The notes under the pieces are model-generated. The model saw nothing but the letters and a program-made list of their open reading frames with translations. It searched no databases and was not told where the DNA came from. Source: Halobacteriovorax sp. JY17 (lineage in GTDB: Bacteria > Bdellovibrionota > Bacteriovoracia > Bacteriovoracales > Bacteriovoracaceae). From it: DNA of 64,000 nucleotides. The stretch's first letter is position 1. Every line of letters starts with the position of its first letter. Made by a program: the position numbers and the translations under genes. The stretch lies in assembly GCF_002753895.1 (NCBI RefSeq), contig NZ_NJER01000001.1, positions 1,426,910 through 1,490,909 on the forward strand, in the 5' to 3' direction. Positions 33,698 to 39,919 of this stretch are shown one piece after another.

Positions 33698-34108
33698 TCA
33701 AGTGGAAGTCTGAACTAGGAATCGATTTCTTGATAAAATAGAGATTAGAATCCAAAAGATTGACCTCAGTGTCATGGCACCAACCGTTCTTATCTCATAA
33801 CTTTTACCTGAATACACATGAATACCAAAACCAATAAAGACAAGTAGGGTCGTGATGGCTAAAGTTATCGCTAGAGAAAAAGCCCATTTCTTTTTTAGAA
33901 ATATGCCAATTCCGAAAATTACATAGAAAAAACCACCAATAAAGTTAAACCAGAGGACAAATGGAACGAATTTACCAGCAAATTGCTTGCCTGCTTCACC
34001 ACCAAATAGGGCAAAGCCACCAGACTTTATTGTCATAATCCCAAATCCAATCGCAAGCAAGCCTAGAATTCCAATAATCATCTTGTCTTTTTTACTATTG
34101 ATTTTCAT
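33698..34108 (-). CDS. Four-helix membrane protein, end of the efflux operon
   Basis: 136-residue hydrophobic protein with four predicted membrane helices (residues 11-32, 45-70, 77-97, 110-128) and no recognised family. Its ATG overlaps the stop of the RND-TolC gene (ATGA), so it is translated with it. May help pump assembly; nothing in the sequence proves it. Confidence 0.65.
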   Translation of the reverse strand: MKINSKKDKMIIGILGLLAIGFGIMTIKSGGFALFGGEAGKQFAGKFVPFVLWFNFIGGFFYVIFGIGIFLKKKWAFSLAITLAITTLLVFIGFGIHVYSGKSYEIRTVGAMTLRSIFWILISILSRNRFLVQTST

Positions 34109-37100
34109 AGGGTTTCTCCATTTTTATATTTAGTTAAATATATCTCCATTTTTCCAATGGTATTAAAAAGGTTAAGAGATGTTACTTCATTTAAAAACTC
34201 TAACCCAATAATTTGAAGTGAGCTTCGGTCATATGCTTCTTGTAATTTGACATAATCAAGAGTTGTAATTTTACCATTTTTAAATCGTTTTTTTTCAGCT
34301 TTTAAAATTTCTTTCTGCTGAACTATTATTTTCTTTAAATAAGTTATTTGTTCTGTATTTGATTGAACTCTACCCTTAATTTCTCCAAAGCCATTATTCA
34401 AATTTAATTCTACTTGTCTCTCTCTAAATTCAGCTTGTCGTTTCTGGCTCAGGGCCATATTAATATTACTTGAGCTTTTCTTTCCTCCTAAATCAAAGTC
34501 CCAACTTATGCCTGCATATACTTCGTATTTGTCTTGAGAGTTCTCCTCAATGGATTCACTAATCCCACCTCCTCGGCCAAAGCTCTTTAGTGAAACAAAT
34601 AAGTCAACATTTGACTTTGCGGCCTCGTTTTCAATTCTCAGTAAGCTTTCAGAAATTTCTTTCCTTGTTTTTATTTGAGAACTCACCAGACCTTCTTTAA
34701 TTATATTTACAACCTCGTTATCTGAAAGACTCAGTAAAGATTTTGAAATCTTCATTTGCTCTATGGATATTTTTGGGTTGTATCCAATTTCTAAAATAGA
34801 TTTTAGCTTTATGCTCTCAATCTCTATTTTTGAATTAATTTCTGCTAGATTTTTTTGTCGGTTAGTTATTTCAACTTCTGAGGTAAGAAGTTCTGATTTA
34901 CTAATAATGCCTGATTTTCTTTTTACTAAATTATGCTTATGGAGTCCCTTGAATCTATCTAAAGAACTTTGAGCAATTTCTTTTTCTCTAACTAATTTAA
35001 CTAAATTCCAATAAATGACAATGGCATCACGAGCAACCTTATCCTTCTCAGCTTGTGTCCTATATTCAATACCTTTCCTTTGTAGCGATACTGCCTTTTT
35101 CTTAAAGTGGTATTCTCGGCTGCCAAAATTTCTCCACAATGGAATTGCGATTGATGTCTTATAAACACTATCCATGGCATCCAAGGAGAATTGATTGTTA
35201 CTTGGGATCGTTCCCATTTCTTTGTCTTCAAAACCAACACCTAACCCAAATTTAAAACCATAAGAAGTCAGCTTCTCGTAATCTAAAGAAAGCCCATAAC
35301 CCTCTTTCTTTGAATCTAATGTAATTGGAGGATTTGGATAGTTTTCGGATGTATACTTAAATAGCTTTGCTGATAACTTCCCATCAAGCATACCGTCAAC
35401 TCCACTCTCTTGATATTCAGCTTGAACTGCGTTTTCATCTTGTATTTTAAATTCATTCGATTCTTCTAATATTTTTACTATTGAGGAAATATTCAATTTC
35501 TCCTGTGCAATAGCATTTTCAGGTAAAAACCCTCCCACCACTGAAAAAATAAGTAGCATTGCTATATTGTTCATTTTAGCACCTCTATATTTTTTAAACT
35601 TATCCCCTAAGTCATTTCCAATTAAATATAATGTGGGCATAAAAAGTAGAACAACGGTAGTACCAAATAGAAGTCCGTAAAGAATTGCTAAAGACAAAGG
35701 AGACAATAAAGGGTCATACCCACCAATAGCGTAAGCAGTAGGAGCGACGGCCAGCACAGTACTAATTGTTGTCAGTGAAATTGGCCTTAATCTTTCTTTG
35801 GCTCCCTGAATAAGTAGCTCTTTAGAAAAGCCACCATTATCTTTCATAAGCTGATTTATATGATCCACTAGAACGATTGAATCATTTACTACTATTCCAG
35901 CAAGCCCAATGAGTCCAATTCCAGCAAACATTGAAATAGGTAAATTGTGAAGATAAAAAGACAAGAATATTCCCACAACTCCAAAAGGAATTACCGTTAA
36001 TATCAAAAAGGGTTTTGCGTATGAATCAAACATTAAGCTTAAAATAAAATATATCCCAACAATGGCCAAACCTGCTGCTATTATTAGTCCTGAGAAAATC
36101 TTTGCCTCTTCTACAGGTCTTCCACTAATCGTATATTTAATATTTTTTTCTTTAACGAACTTTGACTTAAATACATCAAGCATTTCCACTGCGGTTATCT
36201 CTTTGGTATTAATGTTCCCTGTAACAGAAGTTGAGCGTAGACCATTATAATGCTTAATCTCAGCGTAAGAAGGTCTTTCTTCATAGTCAATCATCGTATC
36301 AAGCTTAATTAGTTGACCACGCTTATTTGCGATAGGAAGCTTGGAAATAAAATCAAAGTCACCTCTCGATTTTTTGTCCAGCCTTAATCTAAAATCATAG
36401 GACTTATTTATAGAGGAGTAATCCGTTACGACCTGTCCATCAAAAGCAATTCTCAAGGTTCTTATAATATCTACAGGCGTTAATCCTGCCTGAGCAACTT
36501 TCTTGTAGTTTAATTTAAGATTAATTTCATCTTTTCCCGGAATGAAATCATCTTTAACATCAGAGATACCTTTGATTTTTTTCAAAAAACTAATAACTTT
36601 ATCAGACGATTCCTTTCTATCTTCGTTTTTATTAGAAGACATAATAATTTCAAAAGGTTCACCTAAAGGTGGCCCGATCCTCATTAGATCAAACTCTAAA
36701 TCATACCCTTTAGATTTAAATGTCTCTGAATGTTTACTATTTATTTCATTTATTAAATCTTGAGCGGTTCTTTCTCTATCGCTATATGGAGTCAGATACA
36801 CTAAGAATGAGACTAAATTTTCCTCAGTTCCAAAATTTGTAAGAGAACTTAAACTATGAGTTCCTATTCGTGTGGTATACCCAACAAGTTCATTCTCTTT
36901 TAAATTTCCAATGCTATTTTCAACATCCTTTATTATTGCTTCTACCTTTTCTGGAGCGTATCCTTTTTCTAAAGTAATTTTTAGAGAAAATCCTTCTGAC
37001 GCTTCTTGAGGAAAGGAGTCTTTCCGAACCTTAGTAGCTCCAATGAATACACTGAACACAAATAATCCAAGAAACCCTAGTATTGCGAGATAGCGAAATT

Positions 37101-38643
37101 TTAGAACTTTGGTAAGTATTTTTTCATAAAGATTTTCCCAAAATATAACAACACTATTCTTTTTATAGCCACCTTTCTTTATTGATCCATGTGCTAAGTG
37201 GGCCGGTAACAGCAAATAGCAATCTATCAATGATACAAATAATGCGATCATTACAACTGTTGGCATTTGCCATATAAATTTTCCGGGCAAACCTCCCAGT
37301 GCCAATAATGGTAAAAATGCTGTAATTGTTGTTAATGAAGCTGCTAGAACAGGCCTCCATAGCCTTCCAACCGAATTGCTTGCTGCTTCCTCTGGACTTT
37401 CACCATTTTCTATATTTACATCAAATCGCTCACTGATAACCATCGCATCATCAACAATCATTCCTAAAACAATGACAAATGCTCCCATTGAAACTGAATT
37501 TAGAGTCAGTCCCATTGGCACAAACAAAATCATGCTTCCAAATACAGTAAACGGAATTCCAAAGGCAGTCCAAAAAGCCGGTTTACCTCCTAAAAAATAA
37601 AATAGTAATATAAGGACGAGTACAAAGCCGATTAGCCCATTATTTTTCAATAAGGTAAATTTGCTTCTAGCATTATCTGAAACATCGTTATTGAGTTTGT
37701 AACTTGTTCCGGTAGGAAGCTCTTCTAGCTTAAGGAGTTCTTTTATTTTGTCCGACACCTTAAGTTGATCAACACCACTGCGAATGGCCACCAAAATGGT
37801 TGCACCACGCATACCATTATTTCTGACTATAAGTTTATCGTCTTTCGGTCGATAAATTATATTCGCGACATCACCAAGATAGACCCCTTGGCCGTCTGGA
37901 GACATCCTAATGACTGTATTTAAAACGTCTTCAGCTTTTTCGTATTTATTGAAAGATACAATCTTCTTTTGAGCGATAAAGGATTCTAACGTCCCCCCAG
38001 TTCCCACCTGATTTCTTGAGTTAATTGCGTAGTAAACTGAATTTAAATCAATATCCCTATCAAAGGCCTTTTTAGCATCCACTTCGATATGGATTTCTTC
38101 GTCAGGTAACCCGACCGTTGTTACACTTGATACGCCAGAAACTTTTCTTAAGTCATCCTCGATTTGAGGTAATTTGTTTTTCAAAAGATCATATGAACCT
38201 GAAAATGCTATTTCCATAATGGGTCTATCTTCGGTCGTTACACTGGTAATAACGGGTTGCCCCTCTATGTCGGAAGGAAAATCATCTATTTTATCAATCT
38301 CAGACTGCACATCTGCTAGTAAATCTTTAAATTGAAAATCATTTAAATCATCATCAGCAAAAATTGTTATTCTCGATACACTTTCAATAGAGCTAGATCG
38401 AAATTCCTTGATATTGCCAATCTCAGCAATTTTGTCTTCGATTTTTCCAGTAACATTTAATTCAACATCTTTTGAAGAAGCTCCCGGATATTTAGTTACA
38501 ATGACAATTTGATTCATCGAAACTCCAGGGAATGCCTCTTTTGGGACTTTGTAAATGAAATATCCACCGAGTATAAAGTTTAAAGCTAAAATAAAATTAA
38601 CAAGTATAGGCCTTCTAATAAAATATAATGTTACGCTTTTCAT
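34105..38643 (-). CDS. RND efflux pump fused in frame to a TolC-like outer-membrane protein
   Basis: A 1512-codon frame in two parts. Residues 1-1023 are a full-length HAE1/AcrB-type transporter: RRPILVNFILAL first helix, periplasmic domains, proton-relay VDDA at 397-400, and the repeated second half ending TTVVLLFMPTLYLIG. Residues 1024-1512 begin MNNIAMLLIFSVVGGF...AIAQ, a signal-peptide-like stretch, then a TolC/outer-membrane-efflux protein of coiled-coil repeats. No stop separates them. An AGAGGT ribosome-binding site precedes the internal ATG, so TolC may also be made alone. No periplasmic adaptor gene is in the operon. Substrate unknown. Confidence 0.88.
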   Translation of the reverse strand: MKSVTLYFIRRPILVNFILALNFILGGYFIYKVPKEAFPGVSMNQIVIVTKYPGASSKDVELNVTGKIEDKIAEIGNIKEFRSSSIESVSRITIFADDDLNDFQFKDLLADVQSEIDKIDDFPSDIEGQPVITSVTTEDRPIMEIAFSGSYDLLKNKLPQIEDDLRKVSGVSSVTTVGLPDEEIHIEVDAKKAFDRDIDLNSVYYAINSRNQVGTGGTLESFIAQKKIVSFNKYEKAEDVLNTVIRMSPDGQGVYLGDVANIIYRPKDDKLIVRNNGMRGATILVAIRSGVDQLKVSDKIKELLKLEELPTGTSYKLNNDVSDNARSKFTLLKNNGLIGFVLVLILLFYFLGGKPAFWTAFGIPFTVFGSMILFVPMGLTLNSVSMGAFVIVLGMIVDDAMVISERFDVNIENGESPEEAASNSVGRLWRPVLAASLTTITAFLPLLALGGLPGKFIWQMPTVVMIALFVSLIDCYLLLPAHLAHGSIKKGGYKKNSVVIFWENLYEKILTKVLKFRYLAILGFLGLFVFSVFIGATKVRKDSFPQEASEGFSLKITLEKGYAPEKVEAIIKDVENSIGNLKENELVGYTTRIGTHSLSSLTNFGTEENLVSFLVYLTPYSDRERTAQDLINEINSKHSETFKSKGYDLEFDLMRIGPPLGEPFEIIMSSNKNEDRKESSDKVISFLKKIKGISDVKDDFIPGKDEINLKLNYKKVAQAGLTPVDIIRTLRIAFDGQVVTDYSSINKSYDFRLRLDKKSRGDFDFISKLPIANKRGQLIKLDTMIDYEERPSYAEIKHYNGLRSTSVTGNINTKEITAVEMLDVFKSKFVKEKNIKYTISGRPVEEAKIFSGLIIAAGLAIVGIYFILSLMFDSYAKPFLILTVIPFGVVGIFLSFYLHNLPISMFAGIGLIGLAGIVVNDSIVLVDHINQLMKDNGGFSKELLIQGAKERLRPISLTTISTVLAVAPTAYAIGGYDPLLSPLSLAILYGLLFGTTVVLLFMPTLYLIGNDLGDKFKKYRGAKMNNIAMLLIFSVVGGFLPENAIAQEKLNISSIVKILEESNEFKIQDENAVQAEYQESGVDGMLDGKLSAKLFKYTSENYPNPPITLDSKKEGYGLSLDYEKLTSYGFKFGLGVGFEDKEMGTIPSNNQFSLDAMDSVYKTSIAIPLWRNFGSREYHFKKKAVSLQRKGIEYRTQAEKDKVARDAIVIYWNLVKLVREKEIAQSSLDRFKGLHKHNLVKRKSGIISKSELLTSEVEITNRQKNLAEINSKIEIESIKLKSILEIGYNPKISIEQMKISKSLLSLSDNEVVNIIKEGLVSSQIKTRKEISESLLRIENEAAKSNVDLFVSLKSFGRGGGISESIEENSQDKYEVYAGISWDFDLGGKKSSSNINMALSQKRQAEFRERQVELNLNNGFGEIKGRVQSNTEQITYLKKIIVQQKEILKAEKKRFKNGKITTLDYVKLQEAYDRSSLQIIGLEFLNEVTSLNLFNTIGKMEIYLTKYKNGETL
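35574..35586 (-). promoter_or_regulatory. Internal ribosome-binding site and start for the TolC-like half
   Basis: On the minus strand AGAGGT (35586-35581) lies six bases from ATG 35574-35572, in frame with and inside the RND coding sequence. The downstream codons encode a signal peptide, so this start would give a normally exported TolC-like protein of 489 residues. Confidence 0.65.
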
Positions 38644-38654
38644 AATATCCTTAT

Positions 38655-39281
38655 TTACTCTCTTCTGAGTCCTTTAATAACTATATCAACTCTCATTTTG
38701 ATTGCTTCATCCGTCATCAGTTTTTTACTGACGGCACTCACGCCTAGATCAAAAACCTTATTTACACCTAAATTCTTGAGTAAGCCTGGTATTAAATTTG
38801 AAAGTCCAATACTACCGGCAATTTGAGTCAGAATAAGAGGTAGGGGAGCTTCTATTAGAATTTTATTTTTCTGACAATCCTTTATAGTTTTTGCGAGTAT
38901 CATAAAATGCTTTCTCATTTTTAATCGAGCAAATTTTCGAACAGCTTCTTCTCCATTTAGAATATCGTTTAAAAGGACAAGGATTAGATGACGATTATCT
39001 CTAGCAAATTTTGCCATTGATAATAATTGGCTTTCAAGGGTTGCGAGATTATCTTCTTTTTCAATTAATTCAAAATCCACAAAAAAATCTTCATATACTT
39101 CACTTAGTATCAACTTAATAAACTTGTCTTTATTACCAAAGTGATAACTAAACATTCCTAAGTTTACTTTTGCTGCTGTTGAGACTTCTCTTATGCTTAA
39201 ATTCGATGCACCTTTCTTTATTAATAACTTTCGTCCCTCAACCAAGAGCTTTTTATCAGTATTTGTTGATTTTCTAGACAT
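38655..39281 (-). CDS. TetR-family repressor of the efflux operon
   Basis: 208-residue regulator. The N-terminal HTH is NLSIREVSTAAKVNLGMFSYHFGNKDKFIKLIL, the TetR pattern; the C-terminal two-thirds is the helical ligand-binding domain. GTG 39293 is in frame, but ATG 39281 overlaps the upstream stop as TAATG and is preferred. It is the second gene of the operon and likely binds the 32-bp palindrome upstream of the first. Ligand unknown. Confidence 0.9.
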   Translation of the reverse strand: MSRKSTNTDKKLLVEGRKLLIKKGASNLSIREVSTAAKVNLGMFSYHFGNKDKFIKLILSEVYEDFFVDFELIEKEDNLATLESQLLSMAKFARDNRHLILVLLNDILNGEEAVRKFARLKMRKHFMILAKTIKDCQKNKILIEAPLPLILTQIAGSIGLSNLIPGLLKNLGVNKVFDLGVSAVSKKLMTDEAIKMRVDIVIKGLRRE

Positions 39282-39730
39282 TAATGCTTCCACTCTTCAT
39301 GTGAGAAAAGTTTTTCATAATCTAGTAAACTTTCATGAATTCTACTTAAGCCAGTCTTATAGTCCCCTTTCTCAAAAGCTGAAGATCCTGTCAAAATTCC
39401 GGCAAGTACAGGGTGAATAGCCTCATCCGCATCAGGCTCTAGTTTACAAGTCTTGAAGATATCACTTATTACCAGAGAAATAGCTTTACCCACCTTTTTA
39501 ACTTCTGTTTTATTATCTTTATTTTTTTTATTCTTTTTAACAAGATTGAGTATTTTTTCCATTCGAATTTTTAAATCTTCAGTTGGTATAAACTTCTTAG
39601 CACCAAGATCTTTTACTTTACCAGAGGATATAGAATGATCATGTTCTTTTGAATCTTTGCTGTGATTGTGCTCATTAGAAAAAGCAGTATTTAATGTAAT
39701 TACTAAAACGATACAGATTAATTTATTCAT
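39281..39730 (-). CDS. Exported His-rich protein, first gene of the efflux operon
   Basis: 149-residue protein with a signal peptide (residues 1-18) followed by NEHNHSKDSKEHDHS, a His/Asp stretch able to bind metal, then a charged helical region (KKNKKNKDNKTEVKKVGKAI) and GSSAFEKGDYKTGLSRIHESLLDYEKLF. The open frame extends to 39814 but ATG 39730, after AGGA, begins the signal peptide. No family recognised. Metal handling would suit a pump that exports metal, but the pump is HAE1-like, so this is uncertain. Confidence 0.7.
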   Translation of the reverse strand: MNKLICIVLVITLNTAFSNEHNHSKDSKEHDHSISSGKVKDLGAKKFIPTEDLKIRMEKILNLVKKNKKNKDNKTEVKKVGKAISLVISDIFKTCKLEPDADEAIHPVLAGILTGSSAFEKGDYKTGLSRIHESLLDYEKLFSHEEWKH

Positions 39731-39762
39731 TTTTATCCTTTTTTGACCTATTTTTTTATGAG

Positions 39763-39808
39763 ACCTATAACTATACGGGTGTATAGTTATAGGTGTAAGT
39801 AATTGCAA
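39763..39808 (-). promoter_or_regulatory. Efflux-operon promoter with 32-bp palindromic operator
   Basis: ACCTATAACTATAC (39763-39776) and GTATAGTTATAGGT (39781-39794) are exact 14-bp inverted repeats around GGGT. On the minus strand TTGCAA (39808-39803) and TATACA (39785-39780), 17 bp apart, form a good promoter whose -10 lies inside the operator, the layout of direct repression. Confidence 0.78.
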
Positions 39809-39919
39809 ATGCAACTAAATAATAATGTAATTACGTGAATATATCGCTTCATTACACCTAGAGTGTTGTTTTTATTGATTACTTTCAAAATAAATAAAAC
39901 TTGTCGGCAGTTAAATCGT

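Follow-up and report, generated by a model that had tools for sequence, protein, structure and literature searches.

An RND permease and a TolC-like channel in one reading frame of Bdellovibrionota, joined by a predicted internal signal peptide

In descriptions of efflux pumps, the components are separate proteins that have to meet one another. At the locus considered here, by contrast, a pump and a channel are encoded in a single reading frame. It lies in the window, by which the whole analysed stretch of 64,000 nucleotides from Halobacteriovorax sp. JY17 is meant. One unbroken frame on the minus strand (34105-38643) runs through 1512 codons with no internal stop in the ORF read-out, and Pfam places an RND permease first and a TolC-like OEP domain second. 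A preliminary description of this DNA had claimed that the two proteins share one frame, and both the ORF and the Pfam matches confirm it. The features of the cluster, in the order of transcription, are the following.

38655-39293, minus strand: TetR-family regulator (Pfam TetR_N), first gene of the conserved cluster
35575-38643, minus strand: RND permease half, residues 1-1023 (Pfam ACR_tran)
35506-35616, minus strand: junction with predicted internal signal peptide, residues 1010-1046 (from its sequence and a layout kept in 8/8)
35572-35574, minus strand: in-frame internal ATG, codon 1024, at which the channel of this species may be started on its own
34108-35505, minus strand: TolC-like channel half, predicted for the outer membrane, residues 1047-1512 (Pfam OEP, helix model, Foldseek)
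34105-34107, minus strand: stop codon of the fusion
33698-34108, minus strand: small membrane protein of 136 aa with no family match, whose ATG overlaps the fusion stop by 4 nt

The RND transporter had been called complete, and the ACR_tran match indeed spans residues 7-1008 and profile positions 4-1019 of 1021 (537 bits, E 1e-160). The aspartate pair of the TM4 proton relay (Asp398-Asp399, D398-D399) is present, is invariant in the relatives and aligns with the DD of MexK. The best solved relatives of this half are MexK (E 2e-69), MexB, AcrB and other multidrug RND pumps. No cut-off of the NCBIfam multidrug subfamilies was reached, the best score being 438 bits against the 1250 of RND_permease_2, nor was that of the HME class (TIGR00914; 290 bits for the window protein against 701). 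Judged by these scores, the pump is a divergent RND protein outside the named subfamilies. For the RND half, the structure prediction was of low quality (pLDDT 50) and was left out of the analysis.

The C-terminal half had been described as TolC-like, with which Pfam agrees: the OEP domain was matched in two stretches, the best at residues 1344-1479 (E 9e-18), with 65 bits against a gathering score of 22. In the predicted structure of the junction and channel half, long helices form two pairs, each with a longest member of 69 residues. The mean pLDDT of this model is 64, with values of 85-95 within the long helices, and its low-confidence stretches lie at the places of the TolC barrel strands. 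Foldseek matched the model to TolC, ST50, CmeC, OprM and CusC (E 1e-7 to 1e-5), and all 42 matches with E up to 0.001 were TolC-type channels. When the sequences of PDB were searched with a profile of the channel half, no match was obtained at E 0.01, so that beyond Pfam it is the fold search by itself that speaks for TolC. These matches identify the two halves as a pump and a TolC-like channel; the latter would be exported and form a trimer in the outer membrane.

The preliminary description had suggested a search for the same fusion in relatives, and the fusion was found in six other species of Bdellovibrionota. A protein search of the genus and family revealed it in genomes G004, G058, G059 and G031 (loci L009, L033, L034 and L035, respectively). 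A scan of named genomes added the fused L113 and a split orthologue, L115, and a search of the phylum with the channel half added L180 of genome G257 (the same search returned L113 as G232 and L115 as G262). Altogether, seven species from two families, including that of the window, carry the fused form and one carries the split form. Identity to the window protein is 80% for L035, 73% for L009, 66% for L033 and 65% for L034 and L113. The fused proteins of L009, L033, L034, L113 and L180 are unbroken and 1508-1509 aa long; the frame of L035 runs past the junction and is cut off at codon 1052 by the end of its contig, 29 codons beyond the last pump codon. With an open frame through the junction in six other species, a lost stop or an assembly error is ruled out as a general explanation. 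The fusion is real. Two separate genes in relatives had been named beforehand as the observation that would speak against it, and this arrangement was seen in one relative (L115) and not in the other six.

L115 comes from the Pseudobdellovibrionaceae MAG CSMAG_230, and its RND part is 84% identical to that of the window. It shares with the window the order of TetR gene, pump, channel and small membrane protein, as well as the Shine-Dalgarno site and start codon discussed below. However, it consists of two genes, the TGA of the pump overlapping the ATG of the channel by 4 nt (ATGA). The pump frame of L115 is shifted by 1 nt and ends at this TGA, and the length of its A-rich tail differs by 1 nt from that of the window. 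A run of eight A residues lies just before the split (L115 9040-9072), where slippage could bring back the fused frame.

What joins the two halves had been described as a signal-peptide-like segment ending in AIAQ, and inspection of the sequence agrees. In the window, a basic tail (KFKKYRGAK) is followed by a hydrophobic core of 15 residues, IAMLLIFSVVGGFLP, and a c-region, ENAIA. The AIA|Q site occupies residues 1044-1047, and the cut is predicted between Ala1046 and Gln1047. The assignment is based on composition and the -3/-1 rule. By inspection, a positive n-region, a hydrophobic core and a small-X-Ala motif are present in 8/8 relatives, that is, the seven fused proteins and the split L115, and all eight keep the order of basic tail, core of 12-15 residues, polar stretch and [A/T/V]-X-Ala. 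The motifs at -3 to -1 are AIA, AKA, THA, TYA, VMA, VQA, VYA and VKA, every one with Ala at -1; in 6/8 the residue at -3 is Thr or Val, which is permitted but weaker than Ala. The residue after the predicted cut is Gln, Glu or Lys. Conservation within the protein is lowest at residues 1010-1046, whose sequence varies while the layout stays and the length remains near-constant among species. Most RND helices are longer than the core. In the split L115, the homologous segment is the ordinary N-terminal signal peptide of the channel gene.

A second feature of the junction is the ATG of codon 1024 (35574-35572), which is preceded by AGAGGT-GCTAAA (AGAGGTG at 35580-35586). The preliminary description had pointed to this site as a sign that the channel can be made separately. 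As a ribosome site it is unusually good: among the 27 in-frame internal ATGs of the gene, none but this one has a Shine-Dalgarno consensus match of at least 5 nt. In L115, the homologous AGAGGTG-NTAAA-ATG is the true start of the separate channel gene. The site and the ATG of the window are common only to this split relative and are absent from L009, L033, L034, L035, L113 and L180. Other in-frame start-like codons occur in L009 (TTG), in L180 (ATG, codon 1016) and in L035 (TTG and ATG, in the core or behind it), and they are weak; in L033, L034 and L113, the stretch that starts at codon 1007 and reaches into the mature channel is free of ATG, GTG and TTG. Internal initiation is not the general route to the channel, because three relatives have no start codon near the junction, and as a conserved mechanism it was rejected. 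Going by their sequences, the channel must arise as part of a fused chain in at least these three species. In L033 and L034, a close pair that lacks an internal start, strong purifying selection acts on both halves: dN/dS is 0.12 over the RND half and 0.09 over channel residues 1048-1270. The claim that the channel can be made separately from ATG 35574 is thus only partly upheld: homology with L115 makes an additional, separately started channel plausible in the window species, and the six fused relatives without the site speak against a general mechanism.

The operon had also been said to have no periplasmic adaptor gene, and its neighbours are indeed the TetR gene and the gene of the small membrane protein. 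No adaptor gene was found in the cluster of the window or in the clusters of relatives that were read. A TetR gene lies upstream of the pump in L009, L033, L034, L035, L113 and L115 as well. Homologues of the small membrane protein follow the pump in L009, L113 and L115, and none was found downstream of the pump in L033 and L034. Small secreted proteins with a CxxCH haem-binding motif are encoded divergently beside the TetR gene in L009 (373-786), L035 (3871-4287) and L113 (4846-5274); the window has a small His-rich protein at that place (39281-39814).

The genome contains nine RND genes, and its two TIGR01730 adaptors and one HlyD_D23 match stand beside other RND genes than the fused one. 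At a third locus, a gene of 204 aa may, by its position, be a short adaptor. Most RND loci of this genome are without an adaptor gene: L169 has TolC, RND and TetR, L173 has OEP and RND, and L170-L172 have RND alone. L169 (C2:739-743 kb) holds the same parts as the fused operon as separate genes. In another genome, G109, the locus L065 (3859-9045) has TetR, TolC and RND in the opposite gene order, again with no adaptor, and the stop of its channel overlaps the start of its pump by 4 nt. That the adaptor is absent as a consequence of the fusion is not supported, unfused RND loci of the same genome being without one too. The fused pump may share an adaptor from elsewhere or work without one.

A parallel was found in Bacteroidota, where CusA/CzcA proteins of 1436-1482 aa have RND and then OEP in one frame. 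The order sampled first, as a control, had HME genes that were unfused or truncated only, and fusions were then found on plasmids. The sample of 14 fusions came from Cytophagia, Flavobacteriia, Saprospiria and Bacteroidia. In all 14, a hydrophobic junction segment is followed by Ala|Gln (Ser|Gln in one), and in all 14 records an adaptor gene comes directly after the fusion. The plasmid loci L138-L143 and L145-L152 have a junction of this kind and are annotated merely as RND transporters. In substrates of Bacteroidota, Gln follows the cut of signal peptidase I, which is known as the Q-rule (PMC5837995). That the rule is obeyed inside the fusions is good circumstantial evidence, at the level of sequence, that the site is used.

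The best explanation, and probably the right one, is that the frame encodes a polyprotein that is cut by signal peptidase I into a pump and a channel in a 1:1 ratio. The 12 RND helices would take their usual places in the membrane, with the chain back in the cytoplasm after helix 12. An internal signal peptide, made up of the basic tail and the short core behind it, would then insert N-in/C-out and bring the channel half to the periplasm by way of Sec. After a cut by signal peptidase I behind Ala1046, the pump would keep a short additional C-terminal segment, and the freed channel would trimerise in the outer membrane. Equal production of the two would suit the assembly of trimer on trimer, and in the window species, the start at codon 1024 may supply further channel. 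From the sequences we infer Sec export, cleavage, 1:1 use, the pairing of pump and channel and the efflux function. A polyprotein with an internal signal peptide would account for the conserved features without special machinery. The preliminary description had seen a difficulty in a TolC half entering Sec after the C-terminus of an RND protein; evolution keeps exactly that layout, here and in the CzcA-OEP fusions of Bacteroidota. The split sister L115 counts against the polyprotein in so far as separate genes evidently serve too.

If ribosomes instead started at ATG 35574, the channel would be made apart from the pump and the fused form would be minor or a by-product. The strong Shine-Dalgarno match at a good spacing, the only such site among the 27 internal ATGs, favours this, as does the use of the same site and ATG as a real gene start in L115, 1 nt out of frame. 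However, the fusion is retained in six relatives that lack the site, selection acts on both halves in L033/L034, and in the window no termination occurs before the site, so ribosomes translating the fusion would pass over it. As a replacement for the polyprotein, internal initiation is rather unlikely, although the two are compatible in this species. A sequencing or assembly error, the locus truly being two overlapping genes as in L115, would fit the split in a sister with a pump 84% identical and an A-rich tail differing by 1 nt; it could explain this genome alone, the six other species being fused across the junction with no overlap signature, and is very improbable. For this one genome, an error of 1 nt keeps a small probability because the tail of the split sister differs from it by 1 nt in length.

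The junction could also be a 13th membrane helix that tethers the channel to the pump, so that a single chain would cross two membranes and might replace the adaptor. Its nearly constant length across species and the missing adaptor gene nearby are in keeping with such a stable fusion. On the other hand, the core measures only 12-15 residues, and a signal-peptidase motif is found in all. In the structure model, the first channel helix starts about 5 residues past the predicted cut site. By the geometry of known TolC structures, about 5 residues make too short a tether between the inner membrane and the main part of a TolC trimer, and an uncut channel could not reach the position of the equatorial domain in a trimer of the outer membrane. 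Furthermore, the Bacteroidota fusions obey the Q-rule and retain an adjoining adaptor gene, and adaptor-less RND loci that are unfused are common in this genome. A stable fusion is accordingly a distinctly weaker candidate than internal initiation, and an improbable one.

Regarding its distribution, a search of the phylum with the channel half at E 1e-20 matched 8/369 genomes, one of them weakly through a separate channel gene, and the gene is therefore patchy; within the genus, it occurs in 2/5 genomes. The gene tree joins two genes to partners outside their own families: L115 to the window gene (88/97) and the gene of G257 to L009 (97/97). These placements suggest horizontal transfer among these bacteria. 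One old fusion followed by one later fission appears to be the simplest account, because all relatives other than L115 are fused, in a tree whose deep branches are poorly resolved. The data agree with an ancestral fusion in which an internal start arose before the fission of L115, and they also agree with a split ancestor of the pair, from which the window lineage re-fused through a change of 1 nt.

A selected fusion of pump and channel would be another way to fix their pairing and 1:1 ratio, and it raises the question of how the system functions without a linked adaptor. It would also provide a clear and testable case of a polytopic membrane protein that passes a second protein to Sec. The channel goes unnoticed in annotations that name such proteins RND transporters and nothing more. 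A literature search of titles and abstracts, with subscription papers outside its reach, found no description of RND-OMF fusions, and no mention of a fusion was found in the part of PMC8277102 that was searched.

Compared with known systems, the fusion of the window resembles MexJK, MexAB-OprM and AcrAB-TolC in having a permease homologous to theirs (MexK, E 2e-69) and a channel of the same fold. Those systems are encoded by separate genes together with an adaptor protein, whereas the locus of the window has no adaptor gene. In FbcH of Bradyrhizobium, which Thony-Meyer et al. reportedly described in 1989, cytochromes b and c1 are said to be made as one precursor and cut once it is inserted. 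As proposed for the fusion of the window, an internal signal sequence connects a polytopic membrane protein with a partner that is exported. However, the proteins are unrelated, and the cutting was shown by experiment in FbcH and is inferred in the window. The closest likeness is to the CusA/CzcA-OEP fusions of Bacteroidota (e.g., WP_182411467.1, 1464 aa, annotated as a CusA/CzcA family heavy metal efflux RND transporter), which have RND, a signal-peptide-like segment and OEP in one frame. They differ in their heavy-metal (HME) RND class, in the adaptor gene after the fusion and in phylum. Membership of the window protein among them was rejected on score (290 against 701 bits), and because the phylum is another, the two fusions are independent. 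By analogy, the window protein would work like a CzcA-OEP fusion while not being one, and the fusion of Bdellovibrionota is a variant of a layout already present, unremarked, in the database annotation of Bacteroidota. It is conceivable, at somewhat below even chances, that cut pump-channel polyproteins are a recurrent design of Gram-negative efflux giving equal numbers of pump and channel, which arose independently in Bdellovibrionota (multidrug-type, no linked adaptor) and Bacteroidota (metal-type), and that the gene of the window stands between fusion and fission, making both a polyprotein and a separately started channel.
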